The translations under genes were made by a program, and so were the position numbers. From a virus: a stretch of DNA of 39,160 nucleotides. Positions within the stretch are counted from its first letter, which is position 1; each line of letters opens with the position of its first letter. Location: positions 1 through 39,160 of IMG/VR virus record IMGVR_UViG_3300009705_000039. One strand, given 5' to 3'. Under the pieces are notes generated by a model. That model saw nothing but the letters and a program-made list of their open reading frames with translations. It did no database searches and was not told the DNA's origin. Shown here in pieces: positions 7,667 through 30,907 of the stretch.

Positions 7667-7677
7667 TTTTTTTAATT

Positions 7678-14430: not shown

Positions 14431-14440
14431 AAGTTATTTT

Positions 14441-14995
14441 TTAACAATTACAATTACAATTTTCTAATCCACATAATTCTACAGCTTTATTATATTCATC
14501 TGTAGTTTTGATATACAACGCATTAGTTTGTACACATCCAGCAATGTTAACTTGCATGCCTTGCATAAATAAATATATTAATGTAACATCATTTAGTAAT
14601 GATGTACACTCTATACACTCTTTACATTTGCATTCTAGTAAATCTTTAACTTTCTTAGCTAAGCAGCAATTTAACGCGCATAGACCTACTGTTCCTAGAG
14701 TTACACTTCCAGAAGGTTCAGTTACAAGAACTTTAATTACTCCATTCAGTTGTTCTGTAGTTGAACAAGGTATATTAATATATGTTACTACTAAACTACC
14801 TGTTCCGTCTAATGTTTCGACGTCTTGATTTATAGAACTAGAATTAATAATTCCTGTCACAGGATTGATAGCACCAGGAGGCGCAATCATAGGACATGGC
14901 ACTTCATTAATATAAATTTCTACATCTGCATTTGCAGTCCCTCCACTAACAGTGAGGGTTTTACAATCTGAGGATAAAGCTACTTCTAAAGCCAT
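14441..14995 (-). CDS. cysteine-rich protein paired with the giant adhesin
   Basis: 184 aa with about 15 cysteines. An N-terminal beta domain (LSSDCKTLTVSGGTANADVE) resembles an immunoglobulin-like strand pattern. It is followed by a helical Cys cluster (CKCKECIEC near residue 122) and a terminal CNCNC. The giant adhesin also ends with a Cys-containing helical region, and its gene starts 10 nt downstream. The two could interact at the tail tip, though the sequence does not prove this. Because cytoplasmic disulfides are unlikely, metal binding is a plausible alternative. Confidence 0.62.
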   Translation of the reverse strand: MALEVALSSDCKTLTVSGGTANADVEIYINEVPCPMIAPPGAINPVTGIINSSSINQDVETLDGTGSLVVTYINIPCSTTEQLNGVIKVLVTEPSGSVTLGTVGLCALNCCLAKKVKDLLECKCKECIECTSLLNDVTLIYLFMQGMQVNIAGCVQTNALYIKTTDEYNKAVELCGLENCNCNC

Positions 14996-15019
14996 TTGTT
15001 ATAAGTTTTAAAGTTAAAA

Positions 15020-15046
15020 AAAGTAGGGGGATTTTACACCCCCTTC
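15020..15046 (-). terminator. intrinsic terminator after the 310-aa structural gene
   Basis: On the minus strand a GGGGG/CCCCC stem (15039-15043 with 15026-15030, flanked by extra A-T pairs) closes an 8-nt loop. It is followed after two to three bases by a run of seven T (ACTTTTTTT). It lies 14 nt past the stop of the 310-aa gene and before the Cys-rich gene, so it should reduce expression of the adhesin and fibre genes relative to the upstream product. Confidence 0.75.
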
Positions 15047-15059
15047 TTTCAATGTTAAT

Positions 15060-15992: not shown

Positions 15993-16019
15993 AATTTTAT
16001 ATTTTTATCAATTAATAAT

Positions 16020-16928
16020 TTATTCAGATTTGTGTACCTCAATTTGATTAGTTTGGTACCGAGGATCTGAAATTCCCTCTAGGATACTATTCACTGTCAT
16101 ATCTACAATTTCTTGATGAGTATGTTCAGGTAAATCGCAATCCGTGCTATTGCTTACTACTGCAGGATGTGCTAGATAAGTAAATTTAACTTTACTTATT
16201 AAAAATGTCTCATCCGTATAGAAGTCTAAGTTATCATTTACCACTGTATATAGCGGCTGTTTGTAACTGGTATTATTAAAAGGATCATCTAATAGTGTAT
16301 AAATATCATCTAATTGTGCAAACTTACATTTAGATCCTGTATTTGTATGTGTAGTATTTATTAATGTTAATTCTCCAAGATTATTATATATAAAGTCTCC
16401 ATCAGAATCTACCTGATAATTTCCCATTATTCTATTTGGAGATTGATTATAAGTACAAACCCACTCATTACCCGCATCTTCACATAAATTAGGGTTAACA
16501 AGAACAAGAGGTTGAAAACTACATTCACACTGGTCTAGTTCATACTCATATGTATAATCTATAGGTTGGCAATTCCTATAAGAAACTAGCGCTCTAACAT
16601 TTAATAAGAACATATAATCACCCGCAGCACCACTCCCTATAGGTAATGCAGCTGTATCTATAAAAGAGTTTTCATCTATCTGTCCCTTAAAAACTGTTGC
16701 TTCTGACGCTTCAACAATCAAAGTTCTTAAATCGTCTATTCTTTTCTGAGACTCTTCAAACCCTTTTGAATATTTATTTCCTAGAGCATTATATCTACTT
16801 TTAATAAATCTTGATATATTTTTATTAATTTCAAGATCTATCTCGGTAGTTAAAAGCAAATCAACTTGGAAAGATGCAATTTTTTGCACCCCCAAGTTAA
16901 TTGCTATATGCATTTCTGCGGTTGTCAT
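16020..16928 (-). CDS. putative head-tail connector (neck) protein
   Basis: 302 aa. It opens with helical sequence MTTAEMHIAINLGVQKIASF followed by LTTEIDLEINKNISRFIKSR, and closes with EHTHQEIVDMTVNSILEGIS plus a short tail. This open-and-close pattern ('INxGVQKI... EIDxxxNKxxxRFI', 'HxxIVDxxVxxxLExIxxxRYQ') is one I associate with neck/connector proteins of Bacteroidota phages, where the terminal helices pack against the portal region. The middle part is Cys-containing (YELDQCECSFQ) and beta-rich. Gene order, two genes after the major capsid protein, supports the role. The name is inferred, not searched. Confidence 0.58.
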   Translation of the reverse strand: MTTAEMHIAINLGVQKIASFQVDLLLTTEIDLEINKNISRFIKSRYNALGNKYSKGFEESQKRIDDLRTLIVEASEATVFKGQIDENSFIDTAALPIGSGAAGDYMFLLNVRALVSYRNCQPIDYTYEYELDQCECSFQPLVLVNPNLCEDAGNEWVCTYNQSPNRIMGNYQVDSDGDFIYNNLGELTLINTTHTNTGSKCKFAQLDDIYTLLDDPFNNTSYKQPLYTVVNDNLDFYTDETFLISKVKFTYLAHPAVVSNSTDCDLPEHTHQEIVDMTVNSILEGISDPRYQTNQIEVHKSE

Positions 16929-16929
16929 A

Positions 16930-17739
16930 TTATACTAATTCTTTAAGTTTTGCTCTTAGTGTAGTAAGTACACCAGAATTCTTCTTATTTTTCAAATAAA
17001 CAACAGAGTCATCCATATCTTCTCCAATGACATCATCCATATATATTATTTGATTACCTATTTTTCTAAGTACTTCTGCAGATATTAACTCATTAATTTC
17101 TGCAATCATATCTAAATTTTTATCAGTTGCTACTTTGATAAATTTTGAAGGATCTTTCTCTTTTAATTCATATAAAGCATTTTCTGCTTGTATATTATTT
17201 AATTTATCCGGATTAGTCCCATCAATCGGAGTAAGTACTCTTAAGACGTTCTTCATTTTTGTTTTATCCGAAGTTACCTTTATAAACTCTTTATCTGCAT
17301 CCTTTTTCTTTTGGATAGTTAAATGTTTCTTAAGGGTTTCTCTATTAGCATCATGTACATAAAAACGCTGAGTTGCTTTCATTTCTTCTTTGCTTTTAGC
17401 TACATGTGGATGAGCTTTAATAAATGTATACTTAATATAATCCTCTAGTGCTACTGGACTACCGTCTTCAGCTAAAGACACGTCTAGTGTTACTCCTTCA
17501 AAAGGAACTTGTATACTCATTTCCGCCCAAAATTTCTTAGAATGTCTTGGCCAATCACTATGTGTTGGTTCAACATCTAGTACTCCATTAAGCAATGTTT
17601 TTTCTACTTCGCCTGACACACCTTTTAAAGGTTGTCTTCCTACAAATACACTACCTAAACGAGATTTAGCAGTTACTCTAACTTCTTTAGGTAAATGATT
17701 CATAAGTTCTTTTCTTCTTAATGTTACTGTTTTTTTCAT
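16930..17739 (-). CDS. virion-associated hypothetical protein
   Basis: 269 aa, highly charged and Lys-rich (KKTVTLRRKELMNHLPKEVR at the start, KEEMKATQRFYVHDANRETL in the middle). The C-terminal third (residues about 175-269) contains KLNNIQAENALYELKEKDPS followed by a FIKVATDKNLDMIAEINELI helix. It lies between the major capsid gene and the connector-like gene, one base from the latter, so a minor head/neck protein is likely. No family is recognised. Confidence 0.6.
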   Translation of the reverse strand: MKKTVTLRRKELMNHLPKEVRVTAKSRLGSVFVGRQPLKGVSGEVEKTLLNGVLDVEPTHSDWPRHSKKFWAEMSIQVPFEGVTLDVSLAEDGSPVALEDYIKYTFIKAHPHVAKSKEEMKATQRFYVHDANRETLKKHLTIQKKKDADKEFIKVTSDKTKMKNVLRVLTPIDGTNPDKLNNIQAENALYELKEKDPSKFIKVATDKNLDMIAEINELISAEVLRKIGNQIIYMDDVIGEDMDDSVVYLKNKKNSGVLTTLRAKLKELV

Positions 17740-17794
17740 AATATCGTTCTTTTAAAGTTTAAATTAGGTGGGTGTAAAGAATAACTCCCCGGTT

Positions 17795-17839
17795 AAAAAA
17801 GGTATTTAGGGGCGGAGCAAAAGCCCCAACCCCAATACC
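17795..17839 (-). terminator. intrinsic terminator after the major capsid gene
   Basis: Minus-strand hairpin with outer arms GGTATT (17834-17839) and AATACC (17801-17806) and an inner GGGGC/GCCCC stem. It is followed immediately by six T (17795-17800 read in reverse). It sits between the major capsid gene stop and the next gene, and should insulate high capsid expression from downstream genes. The presence of one terminator after each of the two likely most abundant virion proteins is notable. Confidence 0.82.
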
Positions 17840-17858
17840 AAGGAAACTAAATAATAGA

Positions 17859-19295
17859 CTAAACTGCAACGCAACTTAGATCCAAACTAGTGTCGAAACG
17901 TCTCAACACTATACCTGCAGTCTTAAGCATATGTACAGATGCACCATCAATATCTGACGCTCTAGAATCTGATTGATCAAATCCTTTAGGAGCAACAGAC
18001 CCTGAAACTGCCCATCTTAAATACTCACGACCTTTTTTGTTAATCATTTGCACATTCGCTTGACCATCATAATTTGATTGATCAACAAACACCATTCTGT
18101 AAGACTCCATAGAGTATCCAGTAACAGGATGTTTAGCACGAGCTTGTGCAACTGGTCCATGATCAAACATAGGAACTTTCACAACATTTACTCTGTGTCC
18201 ATCAATATGATCATAACTTGTAAAGTAACCAGTCATTCCTAAAGATCTACCTGATCCCGTAATGAATTTATTATCAGCATTTACAGTCCAGTTTGCACCA
18301 GCACCTGAATTTGAGTGAGTAAACCCACCTTGATAATTTTTCAATGCGTCATCAAATTCTCTAGCACCTCCGATTCCAGTATACAATGTTACTTGTTTAT
18401 TAGACGCGTCAGTCATTCCGTAGAATAAGTCACCGATTACATTTTTTAATTTTGCTTCAGTTAAAGTTGAATATGTATCTTTATTGATGATTTGTTGTAA
18501 TAATCCAGGTCCAGTGATAACAGGTTGACCGTTTTCATCTTTCATAGAAGTTACACCATTAGAATCATAAGTTTTCTCACCATACCAATAAAGCATTTCA
18601 CATTCTTCCTTAAATCTTAACATGTGTTGGTACTCTTCATAGTCCATCCAAAGTTTAGTAGTTTTTCCTCCTTTTGTTGGAAGAGAAAATTCAGCTACAT
18701 AATCTTTAGCATTACCAGCAAAGTGGTAAGACTTACGAACAGTTCCAATTTTGTTTCTTACTAATCCAGGAGTTGACCAATTAGAAGCGTTACCTCTAGA
18801 GAAGTCTAATCCAACATTAGCATATAATTGAGCCCACATAGCACCTGCTGCTGTTTCACTAGCAACTAAAGAAGCTGTAGCATCTGGATCAATTAATTGT
18901 AAAGTGTATTCCCAATTACTTCCATTCTGTACAGGAGCAGACATAATTCTTGCCTGAGTACCTTGTTCAGAAATTAATGTATAAGGGAAAATAAACCATT
19001 TGTCAGGGAAAACAAGTTTAAAAGGAGCCCCACCAAGACCTAATCCCGTACTCGAAACAACTGGACGGATATTAACCTCGTGAGTCTTCACTCTATACTC
19101 GTATTCGTATCTGTCAATCGATTTTGTGTTACCGACGCCCTCAGTAAGCATAGTTAAAGGAAATCTTCGATCTTCTTTACCTGCTAAGTGCGTAATAACT
19201 GGGGAAAGCTCAGTTGGCTTTTCCATCAACGCATTTGCTAGACTATTTGAGTCTGTCATTTGCTGATCGTTATAAAACGTTTTTAATACTTGCAT
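17859..19295 (-). CDS. major capsid protein
   Basis: 478 aa. Length, position (after an acidic scaffold gene, with an intrinsic terminator behind it) and sequence character fit a HK97-fold major capsid protein. Visible features are an N-terminal helical arm (LKTFYNDQQMTDSNSLANAL), a region rich in aromatic beta strands (DRYEYEYRVKTHEVNIRPVV), the long helix DYEEYQHMLRFKEECEMLYW with adjoining YGEKTY, and a YTGIGGAREFDDALKN helix. The C-terminal strands end SLDLSCVAV. No protease domain is fused. It assembles the icosahedral shell, presumably folded with help from host GroEL and the phage GroES-like protein. Family assignment is from memory of Bacteroidota phage capsids. Confidence 0.85.
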   Translation of the reverse strand: MQVLKTFYNDQQMTDSNSLANALMEKPTELSPVITHLAGKEDRRFPLTMLTEGVGNTKSIDRYEYEYRVKTHEVNIRPVVSSTGLGLGGAPFKLVFPDKWFIFPYTLISEQGTQARIMSAPVQNGSNWEYTLQLIDPDATASLVASETAAGAMWAQLYANVGLDFSRGNASNWSTPGLVRNKIGTVRKSYHFAGNAKDYVAEFSLPTKGGKTTKLWMDYEEYQHMLRFKEECEMLYWYGEKTYDSNGVTSMKDENGQPVITGPGLLQQIINKDTYSTLTEAKLKNVIGDLFYGMTDASNKQVTLYTGIGGAREFDDALKNYQGGFTHSNSGAGANWTVNADNKFITGSGRSLGMTGYFTSYDHIDGHRVNVVKVPMFDHGPVAQARAKHPVTGYSMESYRMVFVDQSNYDGQANVQMINKKGREYLRWAVSGSVAPKGFDQSDSRASDIDGASVHMLKTAGIVLRRFDTSLDLSCVAV

Positions 19296-19331
19296 AATTT
19301 ATTTATTTATTTTTAAGTTAACGGACCTTTT

Positions 19332-20441
19332 TTAAAGACTCAGATCCAAAGAGTCTATATCGAAACCTCTACTTTTAGCAGACTTACTTCTTGTAGATTT
19401 AACTTTATCTTGATGACTAGTTATTCTATTTTTTAAAGTTTGTACGCTTTTAGTTTTAGCTTTTGTATCTATTACTTTACTAAGATCAAAACCATTATAC
19501 ATCATCCAGTCCATAGCTAATTTAATATCCATGTCTGCATTCATATGGTCCATATCTCTTTGTGTGTATCCTTCCTTTGTTATAGGAGTAGATATATACT
19601 TAAAGAATTTTTTCTTTTCTTTTGTTGGGACATCAAGACCAGCAAATTTGTCTGCAGTATCTACCTTATTATAAACTTCATCCCACATATCTTTTTGCTC
19701 TTTCATTTGGTCTTCTTGTACCTTTTTTTGTTTTTCCATCATTTGTGCGCGTTCTGAGGTTTGTAATTTAGTTAAAGCCTCTTTAGCTTGCTGAGCTTTA
19801 CTATATAATTTATCGCCGTCATTATAATCACCTAATAACTCAGAAATAAAAGTATCTTCATGTCCTTTCTTTCTAAAGTATTCTACTAAAATTGCTTTTT
19901 GCATAGCAGAATCTTTTTCATTTAAAGTTATTTTACCATAATCTTGAGTTGGAGAATAGGCAGACATAAATTGTTGAGAATCTCCCCCACTTAATACATA
20001 CTCTAAGTGTTGTTTAATTAAAGGAAATGATTCAAACATTTCATTCATTTTATCTTCTGACATTTTTTCTGAAACTGCTTGTGTCATTTTTGTTAATCCA
20101 TCAGGAGTATCTTCAAACTTCTCTTCAAATTCATAGCCAAGTTTTGATAATACTTCTCCAACAACTGTACTTTCATCTATAGTAGTTTCGTCGTCACTCT
20201 CATCTTCTTCATTAACTTCTTCTTCCTCTTCTTTCTCTTCTTTATCTTCAGTTTCTGAAACAGCTTCTATTGAAGTCTCTTCAAGTCCTTCTAAAGAATC
20301 TTCTTTTTTTTCTACATCTTCTTGAAGTTCATCTTTAGGCTCATCTTTTACTTCTTGTTCTTCGGTTACGTTTACTCCTTCTCCGATAAAATCATCAAAG
20401 GTAATATCGTCCAGGTTTAGCTTCTCATTTGGGTTTTCCAT
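19332..20441 (-). CDS. capsid scaffold-like protein
   Basis: 369 aa. Residues about 1-95 are extremely acidic (runs of Glu such as EDKEEKEEEEEVNEEDES). The middle is helical (KMTQAVSEKMSEDKMNEMFE), followed by a long Gln/Lys/Glu helix (ERAQMMEKQKKVQEDQMKEQ) and a basic C-terminus (KVKSTRSKSAKSRGFDIDSL). An acidic, coiled-coil protein with a basic capsid-binding tail immediately upstream of the major capsid gene is the standard arrangement for a scaffolding protein. No protease motif is seen, so how it leaves the head is unknown. Confidence 0.72.
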   Translation of the reverse strand: MENPNEKLNLDDITFDDFIGEGVNVTEEQEVKDEPKDELQEDVEKKEDSLEGLEETSIEAVSETEDKEEKEEEEEVNEEDESDDETTIDESTVVGEVLSKLGYEFEEKFEDTPDGLTKMTQAVSEKMSEDKMNEMFESFPLIKQHLEYVLSGGDSQQFMSAYSPTQDYGKITLNEKDSAMQKAILVEYFRKKGHEDTFISELLGDYNDGDKLYSKAQQAKEALTKLQTSERAQMMEKQKKVQEDQMKEQKDMWDEVYNKVDTADKFAGLDVPTKEKKKFFKYISTPITKEGYTQRDMDHMNADMDIKLAMDWMMYNGFDLSKVIDTKAKTKSVQTLKNRITSHQDKVKSTRSKSAKSRGFDIDSLDLSL

Positions 20442-20538
20442 AGTTGCAAATTTAATTAATTATTTAGTTAGTTTTATCCTTTTTGTTAATTTTAATATAC
20501 TCTTTATTATATAACACTTATTATCTTTTATATTCATC

Positions 20539-22155
20539 TTATTCCGTTATTATTTCGTTTCCTAAGCTATCAAGACCACTATCATTGTTATTAAAATAAG
20601 GCAGTCTTGTAGGATTTGCTGCATCGTACTCTCCATCTCCAGAATAATCGTTAATATAAGAATTTAACGTTCTGTATCCTTTAGCTGTAGCATTAGCTAA
20701 CAAACTATAAGGGTTTTTACTTTGAGTGAACGCGCTTGCATAATAAGGTATTCCCTTACTAGACATAAATTGTCCTTCTTGATAATCTCTCATAGCTCCT
20801 TTATATCCGTCTCTGACCATAGAAGAAAATGGTATCCTTGCGTCTAACAAATCAAAACTAGTATCTTGAGCATCTTGCCATGTTACACCCTCTTTACTGA
20901 ATAATCCTCTATTCGCAAAATCACCAACTGATGCTGCTGCATATGGAAGCATAGCAGTTTTACCAGAATAGTACAGTGAATTACCAAGACCAGTTACAGT
21001 TCTAGTCAAAGGGTTCAGATATGAATATGCTTGCTTGTTATTAGTTATCTGTTGTACTCCCTTTACTGTTTTACTTGCATTTTCCTTTAATGAGTTTTTT
21101 AGTGTCTTATAGGTAGAATTAGCAATATTTTTAGGCGCATCTTTAAGTCCTTTTTGTAGTATTTTAGGTAATTGTTTATATCCAGCTCCTCCTCCTACGA
21201 AAGTATAAGGATCAGTAAACATCCTTATTGCCCCATTAGCAAAGGAGTTTCTATTCTCATGCCCAGGAATAACCTCATCACTGCCTGGGTTGTAATCTTG
21301 CAAACTTCCAGACTCATCCATACTGCCTCCTCTAAACATTGGAGATCTCAAGTCAACTGTTTCTGTACCATCTCCAAACGCTTCATTTAGTCCATAAGTA
21401 ACGAGTCTTGCTGGGGCATTAATAAAAGGGTCTGCAAGACTTTTATATAGATTACCTGTAAATGTATTTATTTTATCCATACTTTCCTGCCCTATCCTTC
21501 GTTGTGTATGTTGCTTATCTACTAGGTCTGAGTAATATTGGTTATAACTAGAAACTTTATCTTGGTTATAACTTGGATGGTGAGAAGGCATAGAGTTTAA
21601 TCTATCCTGTTCCATACCTTGGGTTACTGAGTAAGGCCCTACTCTTAATCCTGGATTCCAATCTGGATTTGAAGGATGTAGTGTTGCGGCCCCTTCCATT
21701 CTTTTCTGCTCTGATCTCCAATACGCATCATACTCATTTAGCTGTTTTAAATCAGCATTTTCTTGTGTTGCTAAATCTGATGTATACTTCTCGTAATCAA
21801 AGTTAGAAGCGTCTTCACCTTCCCCAAAGACAGGAACTTCTCTTAGGTTCGAAGGATTCATTATCCACTGCCCATTATTTCCTAGAACATATTTCTGATC
21901 ATAAGAATGGTCCTGAAATGTATAATCAGGATTATTATCTATAAACGTATGCCATGCTTTATCGTTCTCACTTAATTCTACAGTTTCTCCAGCTGGGTCG
22001 ATGGGGTCAGTTTCAAACCCTCCAGTATTAAATTTTCTTACGCCTCCATTTTTAAACTTATTACTATTAAGTATTGTAGTTATATCAGGCAATTCCATAA
22101 CTGGAGCGTCCTCATAAATTACAACAGGCCTTAGATATTTTTTTAAGTTAGGCAT
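20539..22155 (-). CDS. internal virion/structural protein
   Basis: 538 aa, not assigned to a family. It begins MPNLKKYLRPVVIYEDAPV and has a Gly/Lys/Phe-rich segment near residues 33-50 (FKNGGVRKFNTGGFETD), a style common in proteins packed with the capsid in Bacteroidota phages. A large middle part is helical and basic (DAPKNIANSTYKTLKNSLKE). Its start overlaps the stop of the 559-aa gene by one base, and both lie between portal and scaffold, so head-associated or ejected proteins are likely. Confidence 0.62.
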   Translation of the reverse strand: MPNLKKYLRPVVIYEDAPVMELPDITTILNSNKFKNGGVRKFNTGGFETDPIDPAGETVELSENDKAWHTFIDNNPDYTFQDHSYDQKYVLGNNGQWIMNPSNLREVPVFGEGEDASNFDYEKYTSDLATQENADLKQLNEYDAYWRSEQKRMEGAATLHPSNPDWNPGLRVGPYSVTQGMEQDRLNSMPSHHPSYNQDKVSSYNQYYSDLVDKQHTQRRIGQESMDKINTFTGNLYKSLADPFINAPARLVTYGLNEAFGDGTETVDLRSPMFRGGSMDESGSLQDYNPGSDEVIPGHENRNSFANGAIRMFTDPYTFVGGGAGYKQLPKILQKGLKDAPKNIANSTYKTLKNSLKENASKTVKGVQQITNNKQAYSYLNPLTRTVTGLGNSLYYSGKTAMLPYAAASVGDFANRGLFSKEGVTWQDAQDTSFDLLDARIPFSSMVRDGYKGAMRDYQEGQFMSSKGIPYYASAFTQSKNPYSLLANATAKGYRTLNSYINDYSGDGEYDAANPTRLPYFNNNDSGLDSLGNEIITE

Positions 22156-23834
22156 TATTTATTCTCTATTGGGGTCTTTCTTCTTACTCCTCCTCGCCTT
22201 AATTGCTGAGGAGGCTGAGATGGGGCAGCAGTAATATTATTTACAAATTGTCTTCCTTTCATTAACAAAGGTATAATATTTTGAGGAATATTTTGATAAA
22301 TAAAAGGAGCGTTTGCACTAGCTTTAGCTTTATTTGCTTCTTCTTTCTGTCTTAATTGATCTTCCATTTCCTGTCTATTTAAACTAATATTTATAGATGC
22401 TCTATTAGGATCATCTTCAGTAACACCTACATCACTCATCCAGTTTCTTAATTTACCATAACTACTAATATTGTCTGTTTCTTCATAAGTATCTACACCC
22501 TTTTTATTAAAGTCATAATGACCTTTATCAAATATAATATTACCATCTTCTTCTCTAAATCCTTCTCCTCCGATTGTCATCATCATATTGTAAGCTCCTC
22601 TATCTACATCTGAAGCGTCATAATAATGTTTTGCAGCATCAAATAAATTCTCCTCACCTCCTTGAAATTGTTTCCATAAATCTCTATCGCTACCATAATC
22701 TTGATATTTAACCATATTATCTCCTCTTTTTACTGAATTTTTATATGCCATATATAATCCTAACTTCTCATCATCGGTCATAGTCTCACCATCAATATTA
22801 GCTCGTTGAACTAACATTTGACGAATAGGACGAGGTAAGACTCCAAAAAATTTATCTCTTACCATAGGGTATAAATCATCATTTAAAAATTCTCGCTTAG
22901 AAGACGGTACCTGTTCCATAATGTTTTCTTTAGTCTCTCCAATATACTCTTGCACACTCTGACTCATCTGATTAATCTTAGGAATAACCTTGTCTTGAAA
23001 TAATGTAAAGAGATTACTTTTATCGTTATCAGTTAATGTCTCAGTTGTTGAGTTAGGATCTTCTATAATTTTCTTAGTACTATCATCTACATCTCCCCAG
23101 GGAACAGTTCTATTAATAAATGGAAGAAGAGTTTTATTTAAAAAATTATCATTTAATTTATTTTTAAAGTTCTCAAATTCACTTTGTGCTCCTTGTGAAA
23201 CTTGTTCAGTAAGATTATGCACAGTTTTTTTAATATTTCTAGCTCTCAGTAATTGATTATTGTACGTATCATCTGCTATATCTTCAAGGTCTTCAGCTAT
23301 AGCACTTAAATTTTCTTTTGATTCATTATAAACTTGTTTACTTTTATTTACAGTACTTTCAACTAAATCATTATCAAAATTAATTAGCTCCCCTGCCTTA
23401 TTTAATAAATTTTGTCCTATACTTTTTCCTTTTTCAATAACATTAGAAATACCTTCAAGAAGACCTGGGCCGTCTTCAGCATCAGGCGTAGGAGTAGGCT
23501 CCATTCCTTTAATGAATTCAACTATATCTTCTCCTTTATTAAGTACGTCTTCTTTAGCAACAGATTCTGTTTTAACAATACTATCATTTAAATCGAGAAC
23601 AGTATTTTCTTTTACTCTAGCATCTGAGCCTTCTATAAGAGTTTTATCGTTAGCAACTTTAGATATCTCATCTTGTATAGTCTTAGATCTAGCTTCCTCT
23701 TCTCTATGATTTGTTGTAAATCTTCTTCCTTTCCATTTAAATACTTGTCCAGGACCTAGATCTTGTCTACTCTTAGCAAAAGCTTTACTAAAAGAAAGAT
23801 TGTCTAAATTATTTGTTATTTTTGTTTTTGGCAT
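22155..23834 (-). CDS. internal virion protein, candidate ejected protein
   Basis: 559 aa. Near the N-terminus is SFSKAFAKSRQDLGPGQVFK followed by WKGRRFTT. This 'SFxxAFxxARxxxGxGxxFxWxGKxYTT' motif recurs in structural proteins of many phages. Residues about 110-330 form long helical, coiled-coil sequence (AGELINFDNDLVESTVNKSK, TKENIMEQVPSSKREF). The C-terminus is basic and Pro/Gln-rich (APSQPPQQLRRGGVRRKTP). The start lies 26 bp inside the portal gene. A cargo or ejection protein is a reasonable inference. No lytic domain is evident. Confidence 0.62.
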   Translation of the reverse strand: MPKTKITNNLDNLSFSKAFAKSRQDLGPGQVFKWKGRRFTTNHREEEARSKTIQDEISKVANDKTLIEGSDARVKENTVLDLNDSIVKTESVAKEDVLNKGEDIVEFIKGMEPTPTPDAEDGPGLLEGISNVIEKGKSIGQNLLNKAGELINFDNDLVESTVNKSKQVYNESKENLSAIAEDLEDIADDTYNNQLLRARNIKKTVHNLTEQVSQGAQSEFENFKNKLNDNFLNKTLLPFINRTVPWGDVDDSTKKIIEDPNSTTETLTDNDKSNLFTLFQDKVIPKINQMSQSVQEYIGETKENIMEQVPSSKREFLNDDLYPMVRDKFFGVLPRPIRQMLVQRANIDGETMTDDEKLGLYMAYKNSVKRGDNMVKYQDYGSDRDLWKQFQGGEENLFDAAKHYYDASDVDRGAYNMMMTIGGEGFREEDGNIIFDKGHYDFNKKGVDTYEETDNISSYGKLRNWMSDVGVTEDDPNRASINISLNRQEMEDQLRQKEEANKAKASANAPFIYQNIPQNIIPLLMKGRQFVNNITAAPSQPPQQLRRGGVRRKTPIENK

Positions 23835-26103
23835 CAGATTTATTCTTTTCCTTAGTTATATTTTCTTTTGTTATATTAGATCTTTCAGACTCTCTTTGAG
23901 ACCTCTCTTTTAATTCTATTTCTCTTTCTCTTAATTGTTGATCTTTAGCATTATTATATTTATCTCCCTCAAACTTTGCGCCTTCTCCATTTGCTTTAGA
24001 TCGTGCTTGTATTAATGCTACTTCAATTTTTGTATCACGATCTGCTTGATTATTCATATTCTCATTATCAAGTTGAGCTGCAGCAATTTTTTCTGCGCTT
24101 TGTAGACCTTGTTGTTGTTGTTGCATAGCTTGTTGCTGTTGAGCTTCTTCTAATTCTTGTTGAGCTTTTTCAGCAGCTTTCATTTTAGATTTTATACCTA
24201 CAAAAGATTCAGACTCCATAACATCTACTACAGTAGACATTGGCATTCCGTTTTGTATCATACTTAAACTTAATTGTCTAATTTGTTCTAACTTATCCTG
24301 ATCTCTTCCAGAGTCTGATAAGAATATACCATATTCAGATTCCATATGCGACAAACTATTTACATCTAAAAAGTCTGTTGTACCATCAGGCATAACATAT
24401 GTAGTTTTCTTACCTGTTAGCCAAGCTTCTTTAGAGTAATCTAATAATGCTTGCATATCTCTTTGCTCAAACCTTGCAAAACGTCTAAATAAATCTTCTG
24501 TAATATGAGAAGATTGCATGATAGCTTGTTGTGATGTTGCTTTTCCTTCATAAGCTCCTACATTACCTTGTCTTTGCCTATTAACTCCAGATACTCTTTC
24601 CCATTCTATTACTATGCTTTCTAATAAAGTAATATATTGTTGTATTGTTTTAATAGACATATCCATAACAGATTGATGTTGTGGATTTAATTGAATACCT
24701 TCTTTATTATAATCTACCCAAGCTATTCCAGTACCTTCTACATAATACATAAATTTATCCATGTCCCATTTTTTAGGGATCATATTAATATCAAATTGAG
24801 CTATAATATCTTTACTTCTAGCTATTGCTAATTCTAATCTATATTTATAAATATTATATGTAAGCTGATAAGGTACTCCTATACCTACAATAGACATATT
24901 AGATGAAGGATTAGTTGAATATACTCTCCCATTAATTGGAAGTTTACATATAGACGGATGATCTATAGAAGTTCTTTGATTAACTACAGGATGTATATTA
25001 AGATAATGTTTATCATCTATTCTTGTTCCTTCCCACACTTCATTAATCCATTCCCATTTAATTCTAGCTCCTGTTTCTTTCATCTCAGGAGTTATTACAT
25101 ACCCATCTTCAACTGTCATTTCTTCGATAGATTCTGTAGCTGGATCTACATACTGCATAAATCCAATTCTTTTTCTTGATTTCCAATAAACAGTTACTAC
25201 TTCAATTAAAGCATTTTTATTTATTCTATTATCATTATTAGTAGCGCTAAATGCTATATCAACATTAGTCCCTTTAGGATCTTCTAAATCTAATATTTGT
25301 TTATCTGATAAATGAGTACCAAAGTGATCTATAACTGAAGAGACATGCATTGCCTTTTTAACTAACGCCCAATCTCCATCTTCTACAAATTCTACGTCTG
25401 GGTCTTTATCGTAATCAACATCCATAGGATTTAATACTTCATAAAACGGTTCTCCATTTCTTACTCCTCTATGAGAATAACATTCTCCTGCTACTAAGAA
25501 ATGAAACCATGCTTTTTGAAAATTATCATACATTTCACATTTTTGAAATAGATAGTTCATAGCTTTCTCGCCTGTTAGAGCTCTATTATCTACATAACTA
25601 TCTTCAAATTTTCTCATTAACTCTTCTGGCATCTCAATCTCTTCAGGATCTAATGGAATACCTTCACTCATAGCTTCATCTCCTACTTCACTTAAAAAAC
25701 GTTGTTGTAAATTCATAAATAAAGCTTCAGATTTAGCCACTTCTTTTTGACTTATAGCATCTGAATTCTGTACTGTTACAGTGTAGTTTAAAGGCCTTTT
25801 AGATTTCTCTCCTAATAATAAATCTATAATAGGTTTTATAATAGGGAAATTTCTTATTTGTGATGGAAAGTTTTTTCTTGTTTTTCCATAAGGTTTTAAT
25901 ACATGTTTATAATCAGTATCATCAATGTCTCCATTATAATACCTGTAGAATCTTTCTATATCTGAGTCGCCATATGTATTATGAATATCTGACAATGCTA
26001 TAAACCCTTCGACACATTGCTCTCTCCATTCTTTAGTTTTCTTTGACGCTGGTAATCTTTGTTGTGGGATACTGCTGCTACTACTCGTTTCTTTATGTGC
26101 CAT
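23809..26103 (-). CDS. portal protein
   Basis: 764 aa. The N-terminal half holds the portal-type core: FYRYYNGDIDDTDYKHVLKP, then NFPIIKPIIDLLLGEKSKRP, where the 'P.IK..I..L.GE...RP' helix is typical of large portals of this group. It continues through beta-wing sequence to a long helical stem (ITLLESIVIEWERVSGVNRQ, with GNVGAYEGKATSQQAIMQSS) and a Gln-rich C-terminal coiled coil (EEAQQQQAMQQQQQG). The portal forms the dodecameric gate through which DNA is packaged and the neck attaches. It lies 2 nt downstream of the terminase gene and overlaps the next gene by 26 bp. The C-terminal Gln/Lys/Glu tail is longer than usual. Confidence 0.83.
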   Translation of the reverse strand: MAHKETSSSSSIPQQRLPASKKTKEWREQCVEGFIALSDIHNTYGDSDIERFYRYYNGDIDDTDYKHVLKPYGKTRKNFPSQIRNFPIIKPIIDLLLGEKSKRPLNYTVTVQNSDAISQKEVAKSEALFMNLQQRFLSEVGDEAMSEGIPLDPEEIEMPEELMRKFEDSYVDNRALTGEKAMNYLFQKCEMYDNFQKAWFHFLVAGECYSHRGVRNGEPFYEVLNPMDVDYDKDPDVEFVEDGDWALVKKAMHVSSVIDHFGTHLSDKQILDLEDPKGTNVDIAFSATNNDNRINKNALIEVVTVYWKSRKRIGFMQYVDPATESIEEMTVEDGYVITPEMKETGARIKWEWINEVWEGTRIDDKHYLNIHPVVNQRTSIDHPSICKLPINGRVYSTNPSSNMSIVGIGVPYQLTYNIYKYRLELAIARSKDIIAQFDINMIPKKWDMDKFMYYVEGTGIAWVDYNKEGIQLNPQHQSVMDMSIKTIQQYITLLESIVIEWERVSGVNRQRQGNVGAYEGKATSQQAIMQSSHITEDLFRRFARFEQRDMQALLDYSKEAWLTGKKTTYVMPDGTTDFLDVNSLSHMESEYGIFLSDSGRDQDKLEQIRQLSLSMIQNGMPMSTVVDVMESESFVGIKSKMKAAEKAQQELEEAQQQQAMQQQQQGLQSAEKIAAAQLDNENMNNQADRDTKIEVALIQARSKANGEGAKFEGDKYNNAKDQQLREREIELKERSQRESERSNITKENITKEKNKSDAKNKNNK

Positions 26104-26105
26104 AG

Positions 26106-28070
26106 TTAATAATAGTTATTATCAAACCAATCATCTGTTGACCGGTCGCTGTATATATCTTGTACTTCAGCATTATATAATTCTCTAGTATGATACATAC
26201 CAATCATTAAAGACATAACTCTATCAAAGTTGCCTTTATGATTAAATTTAATCAATTCTTGTATTAATGCGGAATCATAGATTTTATGCAAATTTAGTAA
26301 TTTTTTTCCATTCTCGTCTATAGTACGTACTGAATTAAGCCAATCCCTTATATATATCTCACCTTGAAGCTTCCTAGACTCCGTCATATGCATGCCATAT
26401 TGCCTTTTTACGGTTTTTGATTGCAGTCCTTTCTTGTCTAACATCTCAAATTCTTGCTGTAGTCTGTGTAACTTTCTATGTCGTTTTGCATAAGCTATAA
26501 GCTCTCCCCTATCGTTCTCAAATCCTATCTTAGAATTATAATAATCCGCTAATAAAAATAGATTACGATTATATTCGTCAGATGTTTCAGGCCTACCAAC
26601 ATAAGATGCTACAATTATATCATCTGGTTGAGATAAGTTATTAGGCCTCTTGATTACATAAGATGCTCCTAAAGATGTACTATCTGCAGATTGGTTCTGT
26701 CCATAAGGGTCATGGCAAACCACATATAAATTATGAGGTGTAACACCTTCTGGATTTTTATAAGGAGATTGATAGATTACAATACATCCACTATTATCAT
26801 TCTCTTTTCTATGAGGAAACCTTTCAACTGGCTTCTTACTATAGTCTGGTCTAAAACTAGGATTACCATCAGTATCTTGATACATTACTCCTGGGGTACC
26901 CACTATATTTAAACCTTTAACTTTAATTAAATTATATTGTTCTTGCAAAGATGCTACATCAAATAAATTAGATGTTACTTGTAATGTAGCTTCTTGAGGA
27001 GAATAAGGGTGCTCGGCGATGTATTGGTCTAATGATTTGGCATCTGCTGCACCCTTTTTCTTGTTCCTCATTTTTTGTTCATACTCTACAGCTATATCTT
27101 GTTGGGAGTTACCATTATCGTCTATAAATCCATCTAAATTCTTTTGGATAGGAATAAAATATCCACATGTAGTACCTGTAGCTCCTTCGTCCCAACTGTT
27201 ATTATATTCCATACAATCATAAGCTTCCGGATTGTAAAAAATTTCTTCCATGGCCTCAAAATCTGCTCCTTCCGTACCGCCCGTTCCGAACGCTACCATC
27301 AGTCCCAGTGTTTTGCTACCCTGACGCATGGTAGGCATAGTAACCTCCCACGCTTTCAGGAGGCCAGGAAAAGAACCTGCTTCCTCGAAGAATACTAGCT
27401 CACCTGCTTTACCCCTTACTTTATCTGGAGCATCTTTTAGTGATACCCCCATGATTTGAGACTTCATCCCCATCTCTATCTCAATACCATTTATTTTCTT
27501 TTTATACCCAGACATTTTACTCATTTCTCTGTCTCTTAATCTTGGTTGAGCCCACGCTGTATTATCATCTATAAAAGATAAAAAATCCCAAGCTTTAGAT
27601 AGTAATCCATCCCCAATTAAATATTCTTTTTGTGCAGCAAATACAAAGTTTTTAGAATTCTTTACATGAAAGAAATTACGTGCTAGCATAGACCCTGCTT
27701 TATAAGAATATCCTTTTCTACGGGCTTTAAGTACAATCATATGTCTATTACTTGCTCTAGCTTTATCTATCTCTTGAAAGTATTCCCAATCTCCATCATA
27801 GAATCTAGGAAAAGATCTTTCACGATTAGATTGTATAGATCCATCAGGCATTACTTCGTCTATAGCTCTATCAATAGGACAATAATTTAAATAGAAATAA
27901 TGGAAACCCGTAACACTTAATTCATCTATAGTATACCCATACAAACAGCGTTTCCTTTCCTCGTCCCAAAAGTCATAATACTCTTTTGTTCCAGGGATGG
28001 CTTCTGTATAAGAACCTTCCGCTAAAAATTTTACGGCTGCCTGCCTTACTCTGTTTATATCCTTAAACAT
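26106..28070 (-). CDS. terL: terminase large subunit
   Basis: 654 aa. The ATPase part has a Walker A-like KARRKGYSYK at residues about 115-124 and a Walker B ELVFFEEAG at about 224-232. The coupling region follows in MVAFGTGGTEGADF. The RNase H-like nuclease starts at VVCHDPYGQNQSADS (Asp about 454) and has a second acidic site in IGFENDRGELIAYAKR (about 515-530). All the pieces of a DNA-packaging motor are present in order and length is normal. The start overlaps the stop of the small acidic upstream gene by 8 bp. It acts with the portal at the procapsid vertex, translocating and cutting DNA. Confidence 0.92.
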   Translation of the reverse strand: MFKDINRVRQAAVKFLAEGSYTEAIPGTKEYYDFWDEERKRCLYGYTIDELSVTGFHYFYLNYCPIDRAIDEVMPDGSIQSNRERSFPRFYDGDWEYFQEIDKARASNRHMIVLKARRKGYSYKAGSMLARNFFHVKNSKNFVFAAQKEYLIGDGLLSKAWDFLSFIDDNTAWAQPRLRDREMSKMSGYKKKINGIEIEMGMKSQIMGVSLKDAPDKVRGKAGELVFFEEAGSFPGLLKAWEVTMPTMRQGSKTLGLMVAFGTGGTEGADFEAMEEIFYNPEAYDCMEYNNSWDEGATGTTCGYFIPIQKNLDGFIDDNGNSQQDIAVEYEQKMRNKKKGAADAKSLDQYIAEHPYSPQEATLQVTSNLFDVASLQEQYNLIKVKGLNIVGTPGVMYQDTDGNPSFRPDYSKKPVERFPHRKENDNSGCIVIYQSPYKNPEGVTPHNLYVVCHDPYGQNQSADSTSLGASYVIKRPNNLSQPDDIIVASYVGRPETSDEYNRNLFLLADYYNSKIGFENDRGELIAYAKRHRKLHRLQQEFEMLDKKGLQSKTVKRQYGMHMTESRKLQGEIYIRDWLNSVRTIDENGKKLLNLHKIYDSALIQELIKFNHKGNFDRVMSLMIGMYHTRELYNAEVQDIYSDRSTDDWFDNNYY

Positions 28071-28323
28071 TCACACTTTTATAATTTACTAATTCTGCAC
28101 ATTTTTCGTATTCTTCTAACCCTGTAAAATGTTCTATCACTTCGTCTATCTCTTCATTTGAAATATCCTCGTGTAAGAACGGATTAAAAGGTAATGAAAA
28201 CTCTGCTAGATCATCATTATCTAGTTCTACTAATAAATCTTCTAAATCAAGTTTATTGGTAATAACTAAATATGCATTATCCATAGCTTGATTATAAAGT
28301 TCTAAATCTTCTAAAAAATCCAT
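28063..28323 (-). CDS. small acidic protein with UVR-like C-terminal helix pair
   Basis: 86 aa, acidic. The C-terminal stretch IDEVIEHFTGLEEYEKCAEL has the 'L...I..fe.lEeYEkCA.L' spacing seen in UVR-type helical hairpins and in many small phage proteins. The N-terminus (MDFLEDLELYNQAMDNAYLV) is also helical. It lies between the candidate small terminase and the large terminase and overlaps the latter by 8 bp. Function is unknown. A protein-protein adaptor in packaging or in early regulation is possible. Confidence 0.6.
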   Translation of the reverse strand: MDFLEDLELYNQAMDNAYLVITNKLDLEDLLVELDNDDLAEFSLPFNPFLHEDISNEEIDEVIEHFTGLEEYEKCAELVNYKSVNV

Positions 28324-28324
28324 A

Positions 28325-28849
28325 TTACATACTGTATTTATTTACTTCTACTCCACCTCTATTTTTATTCCCTACTTTTTCTTCTTTTCTAACTAGCTCT
28401 TCTAGTTTAGATAATCCTTCTACAACTTTACCCATTTTTTCTAAATTATAAATTATATCTTTAGCTGTATAAATAGGCTTACCATTATCATCTAATGATG
28501 TTAAATCAATGAACCTCAAGTACTTCTCTAATTTTGCTATAGATGTTTTTGCTGCTTTTAATAATTTAACAGCTGAGGTTTCAGATAATTCATTATATAC
28601 GTCCATACATGCTTTAAGTTTAGGATCTGGTTTCCACTTAGAATCTTTAAATAAAGCGTCTTTAACTTGTTTATCTCTTTCTCCATGATCATAAACATAG
28701 AATGGTGAGTTATGATTACACATATAGTAAACATATGCTAATTCTTTCATACCATTTTTTCTTTTAGCTACAATACTAAACTCATCTAGTGATAATGCAT
28801 ATGGAGAAGGCACAGCTGTGTAATCAACTATTGTTAATAGATCTCTCAT
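28325..28849 (-). CDS. candidate small terminase subunit
   Basis: 174 aa, helical. Features in order are DLLTIVDYTAVPSPYALSLD, a 'DSKWKPDPKLKACMDVYNEL' segment, 'SAVKLLKAAKTSIAKLEKYL', 'YTAKDIIYNLEKMGKVVEGL' and a basic end (KRGG-type NKNRGGVEV). The long helical core with a basic tail, and the place just upstream of the large terminase in most related genomes, make the small terminase the best guess. A helix-turn-helix is not obvious. It starts 26 bp inside the upstream 74-aa gene. Confidence 0.5.
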   Translation of the reverse strand: MRDLLTIVDYTAVPSPYALSLDEFSIVAKRKNGMKELAYVYYMCNHNSPFYVYDHGERDKQVKDALFKDSKWKPDPKLKACMDVYNELSETSAVKLLKAAKTSIAKLEKYLRFIDLTSLDDNGKPIYTAKDIIYNLEKMGKVVEGLSKLEELVRKEEKVGNKNRGGVEVNKYSM

Positions 28850-29048
28850 AATTTTTCTCTAATATTTTTAATAATTGCCTGTCTGTATACATCTTTCTAG
28901 AACTAGAATAGTTTTCATACTCATGTGGATTAAAAATCATCTTAACTTCAGTAAGAACATTATCTACTTCTCTTATAGTCCATCTTCTACCTCTCATGGA
29001 TCTCTTTGCTTTTTTTAACTGCTCTCTTAAACTCATGAATTTATTCAT
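28824..29048 (-). CDS. small basic hypothetical protein
   Basis: 74 aa, strongly basic (LREQLKKAKRSMRGRRWTIR) with a predicted helical C-terminus (DRQLLKILEKNYERSIN). The charge would suit nucleic-acid binding. It overlaps both neighbours: 8 bp with the zinc-ribbon gene upstream and 26 bp with the candidate small terminase downstream. These overlaps argue that it is a real, co-translated gene. The family is not recognised. Confidence 0.58.
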   Translation of the reverse strand: MNKFMSLREQLKKAKRSMRGRRWTIREVDNVLTEVKMIFNPHEYENYSSSRKMYTDRQLLKILEKNYERSINNS

Positions 29049-29220
29049 TTCTTTTTATTGTAGGAAATCCTTCATATTCTTTAGTTAATACCTCTTTCAT
29101 ATACTGTCCCTCTGCACAAGAGCACTCTGCCTCTTTAGTTACCCACTTACCGTCTATTAATACTGTAGTGCTCTTCTGTAGATCCATTGTTGCTCCACAT
29201 GCGTCACATTTATATTTCAT
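29041..29220 (-). CDS. 59-aa zinc-ribbon-like protein
   Basis: Minus-strand frame from ATG at 29218-29220 to TAA at 29041-29043, 59 aa, starting MKYKCDACGATMDLQKST. It has a CxxC near the N-terminus (CDAC) and a CSC at about residues 33-35, so it could bind one zinc. It then has a charged tail (KEYEGFPTIKRNE). Its start overlaps the stop of the 46-aa gene by 4 bp and its stop overlaps the next start by 8 bp. This chain of overlaps is strong evidence for translation. Role unknown. Confidence 0.62.
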   Translation of the reverse strand: MKYKCDACGATMDLQKSTTVLIDGKWVTKEAECSCAEGQYMKEVLTKEYEGFPTIKRNE

Positions 29221-29357
29221 AATTCAAATTTTTTATGATTATTACCCGTTCTAAGACAAATATAATCTTTTTTTGTTGTAAATAAACGTCTTCTACAATC
29301 TTTATTGTGAAATCCTAAATGATGTAGAAATTTAAATCTTTTTAACAGTTGCCTCAT
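29217..29357 (-). CDS. 46-aa basic His/Cys-containing protein
   Basis: Minus-strand frame from ATG at 29355-29357 to TGA at 29217-29219. The 46-aa product begins MRQLLKRFKFLHHLGFHNK and contains CRRRLFTTKKDYIC, very basic with two Cys and several His. It starts 26 bp inside the end of the HU-like gene and ends with an ATGA overlap on the zinc-ribbon start. It may be a small nucleic-acid-binding protein. It is too short for any family call. Confidence 0.5.
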   Translation of the reverse strand: MRQLLKRFKFLHHLGFHNKDCRRRLFTTKKDYICLRTGNNHKKFEL

Positions 29358-29562
29358 CTTTCAATTTATTTATATACTTAACTCTAGAATTCTTTACAAA
29401 AAATTTACCAAAATACGGTAGACGTACTGCGTCAAAATTTCCTTTCTTTATTGTTTCAGATACAAACTTAAATTGATAATTAACCATCTCTTTAACTTTG
29501 TAAACTGGTAACTCATATTTATTAGCTAGGTAATAAATAATTTCTTCTTTATTTTTTACCAT
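29332..29562 (-). CDS. compact HU/IHF-like DNA-binding protein
   Basis: 76 aa. The helical N-terminus (KEEIIYYLANKYELPVYKVK) and the segment FDAVRLPYFGKFFVKNSRVK match the HU/IHF pattern: two helices, then 'V.L..FG.F.v'. Typical HU proteins are about 90 aa. Here the DNA-embracing beta arm is largely missing, and the protein ends shortly after the core. Such short HU-like proteins are frequent in phages of Bacteroidota, including crAss-like phages. It probably compacts or bends phage DNA, perhaps during packaging given its neighbours. It overlaps the 89-aa gene by 14 bp. Confidence 0.7.
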   Translation of the reverse strand: MVKNKEEIIYYLANKYELPVYKVKEMVNYQFKFVSETIKKGNFDAVRLPYFGKFFVKNSRVKYINKLKDEATVKKI

Positions 29563-29818
29563 GATCTACTTTCCATCTTGGTGGAGTATCTGGGCATGAG
29601 GCTGTTCCCCATTTAGCTTTCATTTCCATGTGGCATCCACAAATTCCACATTTTATATTCTCTGTTATATGCTCACAATCGTAACACGCTTTCATTCTCT
29701 TTGTATATACTTCTGGTTCTACTACTGGAGCTCCATTTGCTAGAAACGTACTAGCTTCTTTTAGAAAGTTACTCAGTAATGTCGTTATAGGTTTCGTCGG
29801 TTTCGTCGGTTTCTTCAT
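29549..29818 (-). CDS. zinc-ribbon protein (DUF6171-like)
   Basis: 89 aa. The C-terminal half has the spacing C-x2-C-x8-C-x2-C-x-C followed by a further Cys: KACYDCEH, then CGICGCHMEMKAKWGTASCP. This closely follows small zinc ribbons widespread in phages ('CxxCxxxxxxxxCGxCGCxxxxKxxWxxxxCP'). The N-terminus begins with KKPTKPTKPITTL, in which the repeated Lys-Pro-Thr is encoded by a 9-bp tandem repeat. It likely binds one or two zinc ions. The partner is unknown. Confidence 0.68.
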   Translation of the reverse strand: MKKPTKPTKPITTLLSNFLKEASTFLANGAPVVEPEVYTKRMKACYDCEHITENIKCGICGCHMEMKAKWGTASCPDTPPRWKVDHGKK

Positions 29819-29948
29819 ACTCTATTTTTAGTTTTACACAGTTTCCTTCATAATCATATCCAATTAAAACTATTACTAAGGCACCTCCTCCTAGTACTAG
29901 CCATTCTTCTATGAATACACTATTGGTTGCTATTGATATTGACCTCAA
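29769..29948 (-). CDS. possible small membrane protein with non-ATG start
   Basis: An open frame of about 60 codons with a possible TTG start at 29946-29948 (an ATA codon lies 9 codons further in) and TAA at 29769-29771. It contains a good transmembrane stretch (WLVLGGGALVIVLIGYDY), then an acidic end with EETDETDET. It fills the gap between the winged-helix and zinc-ribbon genes. Against it are the missing ATG and an overlap of 50 bp with the downstream gene. The repeat GACGAAACC occurs in the overlap and encodes Glu-Thr-Asp here and Lys-Pro-Thr in the other frame. It is a tentative gene. Confidence 0.38.
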   Translation of the reverse strand: MRSISIATNSVFIEEWLVLGGGALVIVLIGYDYEGNCVKLKIEYEETDETDETYNDITE

Positions 29949-30264
29949 CTGTTTTTATATTAGGATTAAGGATAGGAGTTAATACATAAAGATTCTTAAT
30001 CTTTTTTAAAGCACCTTTATCTTTTAACTTTTTAATATAATTATTCAAAGTATTAGCATCACGAATATCCAACTTAGATGCTACTACCTGTTTAATTTTA
30101 TTATGACATATATTTTTAATCTCAACTGTCTTATGTATATCTATAAATAAAGATAATACTTGTAACTCTTTATTAGTTAAATTAAAAATACCATTCCATA
30201 CTTGGAGATACTTAAGAGTAGTATCAGCCTTAATAGTTATTCTTCTACGTTCTTCTGGATTCAT
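29920..30264 (-). CDS. winged-helix DNA-binding protein
   Basis: 114 aa. Features are a helical start (RRRITIKADTTLKYLQVWNG), 'LTNKELQVLSLFIDI' (first helix of a winged helix), 'IKQVVASKLDIRDANTLNNY' (turn plus recognition helix) and a wing-like end LKKIKNLYVLTPILNPN. The protein has the size and pattern of small phage transcription or replication regulators, as in the T4-like and crAss-like phages. It directly follows the GroES-like gene with a one-base overlap, so it is near the promoter end of the leftward operon, where a late-gene regulator would fit. The target is unknown. Confidence 0.66.
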   Translation of the reverse strand: MNPEERRRITIKADTTLKYLQVWNGIFNLTNKELQVLSLFIDIHKTVEIKNICHNKIKQVVASKLDIRDANTLNNYIKKLKDKGALKKIKNLYVLTPILNPNIKTVEVNINSNQ

Positions 30265-30536
30265 TACAGTATACCTAAGCAGTGAAACTCACTAACTAGT
30301 ACATAAGAGGTCTCACCTACTACTATAATCTTACCAGCTACCGCAGGATCAATCATTACAGTGTCTCCTGTTTTTACCTTAGTACATTCCGGACCTACAT
30401 CCAAAACTTCTAAGATATTTGTTGTCATCTTATCAGAAGCCTCTTCCGATAGTATTATTCCTGATTCTGTTTGGGTTTTTCTTGGATCAGGTAGTAAGAT
30501 CCAGTCTCTTAAAGGTTTAAATTTAATCTTTGTCAT
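30264..30536 (-). CDS. GroES-like co-chaperonin
   Basis: 90 aa. It begins KPLRDWILLPDPRKTQTESG ('P..DrvLv...e...tesGIil'), has the mobile loop SGIILSEEASDKM with the hydrophobic IIL tripeptide that contacts GroEL, then 'EVLDVGPECTKVKTGDTVMI', 'VGETSYVLVSEFHCLGIL' as in Cpn10. Phage co-chaperonins (for example T4 gp31) replace host GroES so the GroEL chamber can fold the capsid protein. No GroEL is encoded here, so it must work with the host's. It is the first gene of the leftward operon, 26 bp from a -7 promoter box. Confidence 0.85.
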   Translation of the reverse strand: MTKIKFKPLRDWILLPDPRKTQTESGIILSEEASDKMTTNILEVLDVGPECTKVKTGDTVMIDPAVAGKIIVVGETSYVLVSEFHCLGIL

Positions 30537-30569: not shown

Positions 30570-30633
30570 TAAAAGTTTTTTATATAAATACTAAAAAATA
30601 AATTTTTTTTAACAATTTTAAAAAAAGATATAG

Positions 30634-30873
30634 TTATCCCCCTTGGTTTTGCTTCTTTCAAGTGTTGATTTCTCTCTAATAGTGCTTTCCTCATCGGAGA
30701 CCAAAGGATACTAAAACTGGTGTTAATTCACCGCACCTACCTATGTGCTATGTATCCTAATTAGAGTTTATACATTACTCTTTTGCAACTACCGGAGAAA
30801 ATCTCGTTCTTATTTAGAACTACCAATCCGATGTCTAATCCCTTTTTTGGTTACCGAGGGATGATAATATTGC
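30634..30873 (-). ncRNA. structured non-coding RNA, about 240 nt, unknown family
   Basis: Read on the minus strand, the region folds into a set of nested stems. The ends pair as TTATC(A)TCCCTCGGT (30867-30853) with ACCAAGGGGGATAA (30647-30634), about 13 bp with one bulge, one mismatch and one U-G pair that fits only this strand. Inside, CATCGGA (30833-30827) pairs with TCCGATG (30698-30692). Within that lie hairpins GTTCT/AGAAC (30820-30806), GAGA/TCTC (30805-30795) and AGAGT/ACTCT (30781-30763). The stem AGGATAC/GTATCCT (30758-30752 with 30711-30705) encloses two more hairpins, GCAC/GTGC (30748-30733) and GGTG/CACC (30732-30719). A consensus promoter puts the 5' end about 5 nt before the outer stem, and TCTTTTTTT follows the 3' end. 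No protein frame fits. It resembles no RNA family I can name. Confidence 0.62.
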
Positions 30874-30877
30874 GGGA

Positions 30878-30907
30878 CAAAAGTAATAAAAAAATATTAC
30901 AGTGCAA
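30878..30907 (-). promoter_or_regulatory. Bacteroidota-type promoter for the minus-strand ncRNA
   Basis: On the minus strand TTG (30907-30905) is followed by exactly 19 bases and TACTTTTG (30885-30878). This is a full match to the Bacteroidetes sigma-factor consensus (-33 TTG, -7 TAnnTTTG). The expected transcription start near 30873 is a few bases before the outer stem of the structured RNA. The flanks are unusually rich in A runs. Confidence 0.75.

Follow-up and report, generated by a model that had tools for sequence, protein, structure and literature searches.

A structured leader RNA of the crAss-like phage late operon

The window analysed here is the whole of a 39-kb virus record (39,160 nt) which, on sequence grounds, is a fragment of a Crassvirales (crAss-like) phage: its TerL is ~40% identical to those of gut crAss-like phages, and its capsid protein matches the Pfam Crassvirus major capsid protein with an E value of 3e-83. 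Genes to the left of ~30.5 kb lie on the minus strand and encode packaging, capsid and other late proteins, and those to the right of ~31.9 kb lie on the plus strand and encode an SSB-like protein, PolA and a helicase. The RNA that we describe sits between these divergent late and replication blocks. The late operon that it heads (49..30536, minus strand) begins, 3' of the RNA, with a GroES-like co-chaperonin (30264..30536, minus; Pfam Cpn10, E 4e-8; PHROG co-chaperonin GroES), followed on the same strand by TerL (26106-28070), portal (23809-26103), capsid (17859-19295) and other genes.

The RNA itself is encoded on the minus strand at 30625..30877 (cmsearch 268.8 bits, model positions 1-252). 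It is ~250 nt long and has ten helices, including a long-range P4/P5 pairing and a three-way junction. The initial annotation had assigned it to 30634-30907, an interval that also takes in the promoter; the covariance model sets the 5' end at 30877 and the 3' end at 30625. The minus-strand -33/-7 promoter that had been proposed was borne out, and is of the Bacteroidota type (30878..30907, minus): a canonical -33 TTG starting at 30907 is separated by a 19-nt spacer from the -7 element TACTTTTG (TAnnTTTG) at 30885-30878, and this is the only match to the TTG/TAnnTTTG promoter within the late-operon intergenic gaps of the window. TAnnTTTG occurs near the 5' end of the RNA in 90 of the 93 non-redundant members with enough upstream sequence, compared with 7.2% of background windows, and its spacing from the RNA is identical in 69 of those 93 members. 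By this spacing, helix P1 therefore starts within a few bases of the expected transcription start.

The ten helices were derived from 57 non-redundant sequences (alignment A2) and a pairwise covariation scan, and fall into two domains. Domain I (30785..30873, minus), comprising helices 1-4 with 99-100% of cells paired, is closed by P1 (GCAAU/GUUGC, 30873-30869/30789-30785), which encloses P2 (30862-30858/30842-30838), P3 (30832-30827/30796-30791) and P3a (30819-30816/30810-30807). In many divergent members an extra hairpin lies between P1 and P2 (ACAC/GUGU, ACUC/GAGU and others). Domain II (30660..30780, minus), comprising helices 5-10 and supported by covariation, is formed by the long-range helices P4 (30780-30777/30663-30660) and P5 (30766-30760/30680-30674), which enclose a multiloop with a three-way junction and the hairpin P7 (about 30699-30690). 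The junction consists of P6 (30758-30752/30711-30705) and, inside it, P6a (30748-30745/30736-30733) and P6b (30732-30729/30722-30719, a position read from the sequence). It corresponds to the 7-bp stem around two adjacent hairpins that had been noticed in the window alone, and over 86 sequences it shows compensatory changes with 99.8% of cells paired. The ~13-bp outer stem that had been thought to join the two ends of the RNA did not survive comparison: its 5' arm (TTTGTCCC) overlaps the -7 element and is not conserved, nearly all homologues reading TTTG-CACC. The actual closing helices are P1 and the long-range P4 and P5, which were absent from that description.

Several unpaired segments are also conserved, namely AUCA before P2, AGA between P2 and P3, UUUUCUCC, GUAUAA, GAAAUC and the loops of P6a and P6b. 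The 3' tail (30625..30644, minus) is made up of a conserved AAGGGGGA (30644-30637), whose GGGGG is invariant in alignment A2, and a UAACUAUAUC-like stretch. A pseudoknot between this tail and GUAUAA, in the P4/P5 internal loop, may exist but is only suggestive: complementarity scores 4.84 for the true tails and 3.92 for letter-shuffled ones, with tails swapped between members barely below the true value (4.70 +/- 0.07). Two other pairings were rejected. Pairing of the tail G-run with UUUUCUCC or with the P2 arm was inseparable from existing helices, and a local AGAAC/GUUCU hairpin between domains I and II, seen in the single-sequence fold, is displaced by the covarying P4 and P5.

The comparative evidence for this structure is far stronger than the stability of the window's own fold, whose minimum-energy form differs from the conserved structure. 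In a plain MAFFT alignment of the 57 non-redundant homologues, 98.7% of cells in the 46-pair structure are paired, whereas controls in which the structure was slid along the alignment are only 34-51% paired. Changes on both sides occur at 21 of the 46 pairs (0/500 shuffles), and double-change cells number 267 versus 74.7 +/- 9.5 in shuffles (again 0/500). A set of 86 more divergent sequences is 96.8% paired, with 32 pairs changing on both sides and 549 double-change cells, in an alignment to the model that leans towards the model. Folding with no structure supplied recovered the same layout in two divergent groups: ten freshwater-type Crassvirales gave 61 pairs, of which 24 vary on both sides, and four phages of a different group gave 68 pairs, of which 14 do so. 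A second freshwater-type Crassvirales group was too uniform and its 5' part folded differently; P4 and P5 are clear there (CGACA/UGUCG and CUCGG/CCGAG).

The strand and the nature of the element follow from the same alignments. At paired positions the homologues have 209 G-U combinations and 21 A-C, and therefore it is the minus-strand RNA that is under selection, rather than the DNA or the opposite strand. No open reading frame spans the RNA: every frame carries stops in the 57 homologues, except for two sequences without a stop in one frame, and no match to a protein-coding alignment was seen, in agreement with the earlier view that no protein fits here. It could be argued that the fold arises by chance, or that the element acts as DNA or encodes an overlooked protein, on the ground that the window sequence alone folds only moderately better than expected (z = -2.37; 2 of 200 shuffles as good). 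Given compensatory changes well beyond those of both the shuffled and the slid controls, the strand-specific G-U excess, the stops in all frames and the independent confirmation from separate clades, the probability of any of these is close to negligible. We regard the existence of a minus-strand RNA, its strand and its status as a leader, taken together, as practically certain.

The RNA appears to be new. A covariance-model search of Rfam 15 with the window and ten divergent homologous loci gave no match at the gathering score, and below that score only chance matches to unrelated families (E up to 5). No description of it was found in the open-access literature, a coverage that excludes most subscription papers. 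Together with the massive covariation among homologues and their presence in more than 100 contigs, this strongly supports the initial annotation of a new phage non-coding RNA.

Homologues were found in well over 100 viral contigs, including at least a hundred aquatic crAss-like phages. An IMG/VR scan with TerL yielded 80 loci, 36 of which contain the RNA by blastn or nhmmer, many of the remaining contigs ending before the site. With two motif scans the number of RNA-bearing loci rose to at least 165 of 209 fetched, some of which repeat the same contig, and a third scan with a different motif added at least 53 further loci with model E <= 4e-4. In Crassvirales outside the group close to the window in TerL, the RNA was missed near GroES and was then located farther upstream by a whole-record model search. 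A blastn search of named phages with the RNA of the window and with three of its divergent variants gave no convincing match, and model R1 gave only weak matches on six named records (five Crassvirales and one Flavobacterium phage). In Azobacteroides phage ProJPt-Bp1 (L244, 4522-4674) a weak model match (E 0.15) lies between divergent blocks and heads the late operon, and may be a remote homologue. A match in cr273_1 (E 0.31) was rejected, as it falls at a capsid/RecA coding boundary. In GTDB bacterial genomes there were four chance pattern matches, none of them confirmed by the model.

The RNA is not confined to Crassvirales. In four divergent members (L277, 10949-11206; L259, 1118-1354; L291, 492-731; L301, 8270-8511) it heads a terminase-portal-capsid operon whose terminase, portal and capsid belong to PHROGs other than those of Crassvirales, with no match to the window TerL. 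The RNA is thus shown to be common to Crassvirales and at least one other, unrelated phage group. A weak member with a P3 region very like that of the L216 type was also seen in L286 (848-1044, E 0.076), where the operon that it heads includes genes for a helicase and a UvsX-like recombinase.

The position of the RNA relative to the gene blocks is fixed. Across 216 loci, not all of them independent, the late genes detected (GroES 191, TerL 169, capsid 23) all share the strand of the RNA and follow it, and the PolA (67), SSB-like (81) and helicase (28) genes are all encoded upstream of it on the other strand; the RNA was never found away from the head of a late operon among the loci examined. 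The fixed position may in part reflect general phage synteny. The first late gene, in contrast, varies. GroES lies 64-95 nt from the RNA in most members; elsewhere, concanavalin/LamG-like, peptidase- or transpeptidase-like, or holin-like proteins (named by sequence inspection) are inserted between the two, and in freshwater-type lineages GroES can be 5-8 kb away. A consistent link to one downstream gene or function, of the kind that marks a gene-specific riboswitch or protein-binding leader, is absent.

The initial annotation had called the RNA self-contained, a description that the comparison does not support. The T7 tract 3' of the RNA is present in the window, but no conserved hairpin precedes it and the tract itself is unconserved, and no conserved terminator was found 3' of the RNA among the homologues. 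The next gene lies within about 15-90 nt of the RNA in most members, and can begin as little as ~15-40 nt downstream. In a few lineages (L114, L133, L171 and the L216/L306 type), the RNA is preceded by the stop codon of a small gene running in the same direction and no promoter adjoins it, so that the RNA is internal to the transcript and its position at the 5' end is therefore not essential. Because there is no conserved terminator and the next gene can start so close, the RNA is a leader, usually at the extreme 5' end, or an intra-operonic element of the ~30-kb late operon, and does not look like a self-contained transcript. In L047, L084, L114, L306 and L313 a small co-directional gene directly before the RNA ends in C-E-N-C-G-S and a stop, and is zinc-ribbon-like.

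The shape of the RNA, like its fixed position, points to a role in transcription of the late operon in its entirety, and such a position would fit the regulation at the early/late switch that had been suggested from the window alone. Our tentative proposal, which we hold with some doubt, is that it may be a cis-acting leader, similar to put or EAR, that modifies the host RNA polymerase for the long late operon. According to this proposal, host RNA polymerase would start at the adjacent Bacteroidota-type promoter, and the nascent RNA would fold and stay with the elongation complex, either directly or through Nus-like or phage proteins. The polymerase so modified would then resist pausing and Rho, as well as the intrinsic terminators that lie within the ~30-kb operon. 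A cis-acting polymerase modifier is favoured because the leader stays next to the promoter at the head of a long operon, is followed by any gene, and is common to unrelated phages; its occurrence at the same operon place in an unrelated phage group is what is expected of a portable cis element acting on the host polymerase. The late genes of Crassvirales have been described as a single transcription unit that the host RNA polymerase probably transcribes (PMC10136315). In HK022, the put leader RNA alone suffices, with no phage protein, over at least 10 kb, and put RNA is located just after the promoter or ~270 nt downstream of it (PMC9378689).

The late operons do contain internal terminators. 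Two strong intrinsic terminators lie between co-directional genes inside the late operon of the window (15025-15044 and 17740-17858, minus). In 11 of 11 late operons examined, an intrinsic terminator lies between co-directional late genes about 13-20 kb into the operon, and no obvious Bacteroidota promoter was found in the terminator-bearing gaps of these 11 genomes. Ten relatives have conserved a terminator at the corresponding site behind the capsid region, and gut Crassvirales possess one as well. However, internal late terminators are also present in crAss001, cr113 and phi14:2, in which the RNA was not detected. The terminators are therefore permissive rather than specific evidence, and the argument that they prove antitermination was dropped. 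Partial terminators could also set expression ratios by themselves.

Other functions have to be weighed against a polymerase-modifying leader. Action as a separate molecule is supposed for other ornate phage RNAs, and the present RNA might likewise work in trans, once excised from the transcript that starts at the late promoter or once formed by pausing at the tail; its high structural complexity and conserved loops, its own promoter in most members and its unpaired, conserved G-rich tail would all agree with such a role. We consider this rather unlikely, since the RNA lacks a terminator or any conserved end signal, was never found away from the late-operon head and, in some lineages, is embedded after an upstream gene without a promoter of its own. 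A leader that works in cis after transcription, by stabilizing the late mRNA, by controlling translation of the first genes or by binding a late protein for feedback, is an alternative to which we assign a low probability. Structured 5' ends can shield mRNA from decay, and the RNA is the 5' UTR in most members, with P1 a few bases from the expected start. The varying first gene (GroES, concanavalin/LamG-like, peptidase-like or holin-like, with GroES sometimes far away) argues against gene-specific control, and protection of the 5' end alone is hard to reconcile with the several lineages in which the RNA is internal.

The transcript could also serve the DNA rather than gene expression, either by priming replication from an R-loop at an origin close to the strand switch or by a part in packaging. 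The unpaired G-tract of the tail and the site at the switch between gene blocks, which in Crassvirales has been reported to coincide with separate replichores (PMC10136315), would suit such a role; as the RNA of freshwater lineages can be preceded by a gene on its own strand, we find it improbable. The polymerase-modifying proposal has difficulties of its own, in that the RNA is far larger and more complex than put, and has no evident sequence resemblance to known antiterminators.

The RNA was compared with known systems, and we claim no membership in put, EAR, GOLLD, ROOL or HEARO. Like HK022 put, to which we claim no relation in sequence, it is a phage leader RNA placed right after a host-type promoter that heads a long operon, with any gene downstream. 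Put, however, is ~70 nt long with two stem-loops and serves early genes (PMC9378689), whereas the RNA described here, with its ten helices in ~250 nt, precedes late genes. The EAR/epsC leader (RF01735), which is structured and linked to antitermination, and JUMPstart (RF01707) are likewise leader elements of long operons, found in another phylum and of a different architecture, and neither the window nor the ten homologous loci matched them in Rfam. The epsC element is located in a 5' UTR (PMC2864571). GOLLD, ROOL and HEARO are also ornate structured RNAs tied to phages or mobile elements; the present RNA has no Rfam match to them, is smaller and bound to the late-operon head, and has a promoter of its own in most members with no sign of independent termination. 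The structured elements manA, wcaG and PhotoRC-II of marine phages (PMC2864571) go with particular cyanophage metabolic or photosynthesis genes, unlike the RNA described here, which precedes a structural operon whatever its first gene and again has no Rfam match.

Crassvirales rank with the most abundant phages known, and their late genes have a single long transcript. An RNA that heads this transcript in aquatic phage contigs numbering well over 100, that also occurs in a second phage group and that is not in Rfam, offers a concrete handle on late gene control, and is a candidate for a new class of RNA modifying the host RNA polymerase. One may speculate further, with less conviction, that it represents a new leader-RNA superfamily, common to Crassvirales and one or more unrelated phage groups, whose members would bind the host polymerase and license transcription of the whole late operon, that is, an RNA-based antiterminator of Bacteroidota phages several times the size of put. 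The covariance model and the structure make mutational tests possible at once.

Two further features of the window were observed. A 2250-aa protein of the late operon (7678-14430, minus) has repeat-like domains and no PHROGs match, and shares only ~51% identity with its counterpart in the close relative G010, against 94% for the capsid; such divergence would be as expected of a fast-evolving surface or host-binding protein. On the other side of the RNA, a 600-nt non-coding region (31278-31876, plus) precedes the plus-strand genes, and it is mosaic, since ~390 nt of it (31451-31840) are missing from the close relative L078 and pieces of it recur in other contigs. At its end (~31837-31876) lies an AT-rich, repeat-like leader (ACATTAACTAAACCTTAACTAAACATTAAATC) which in L078 precedes more than one plus-strand gene, and which is perhaps an early-gene signal.
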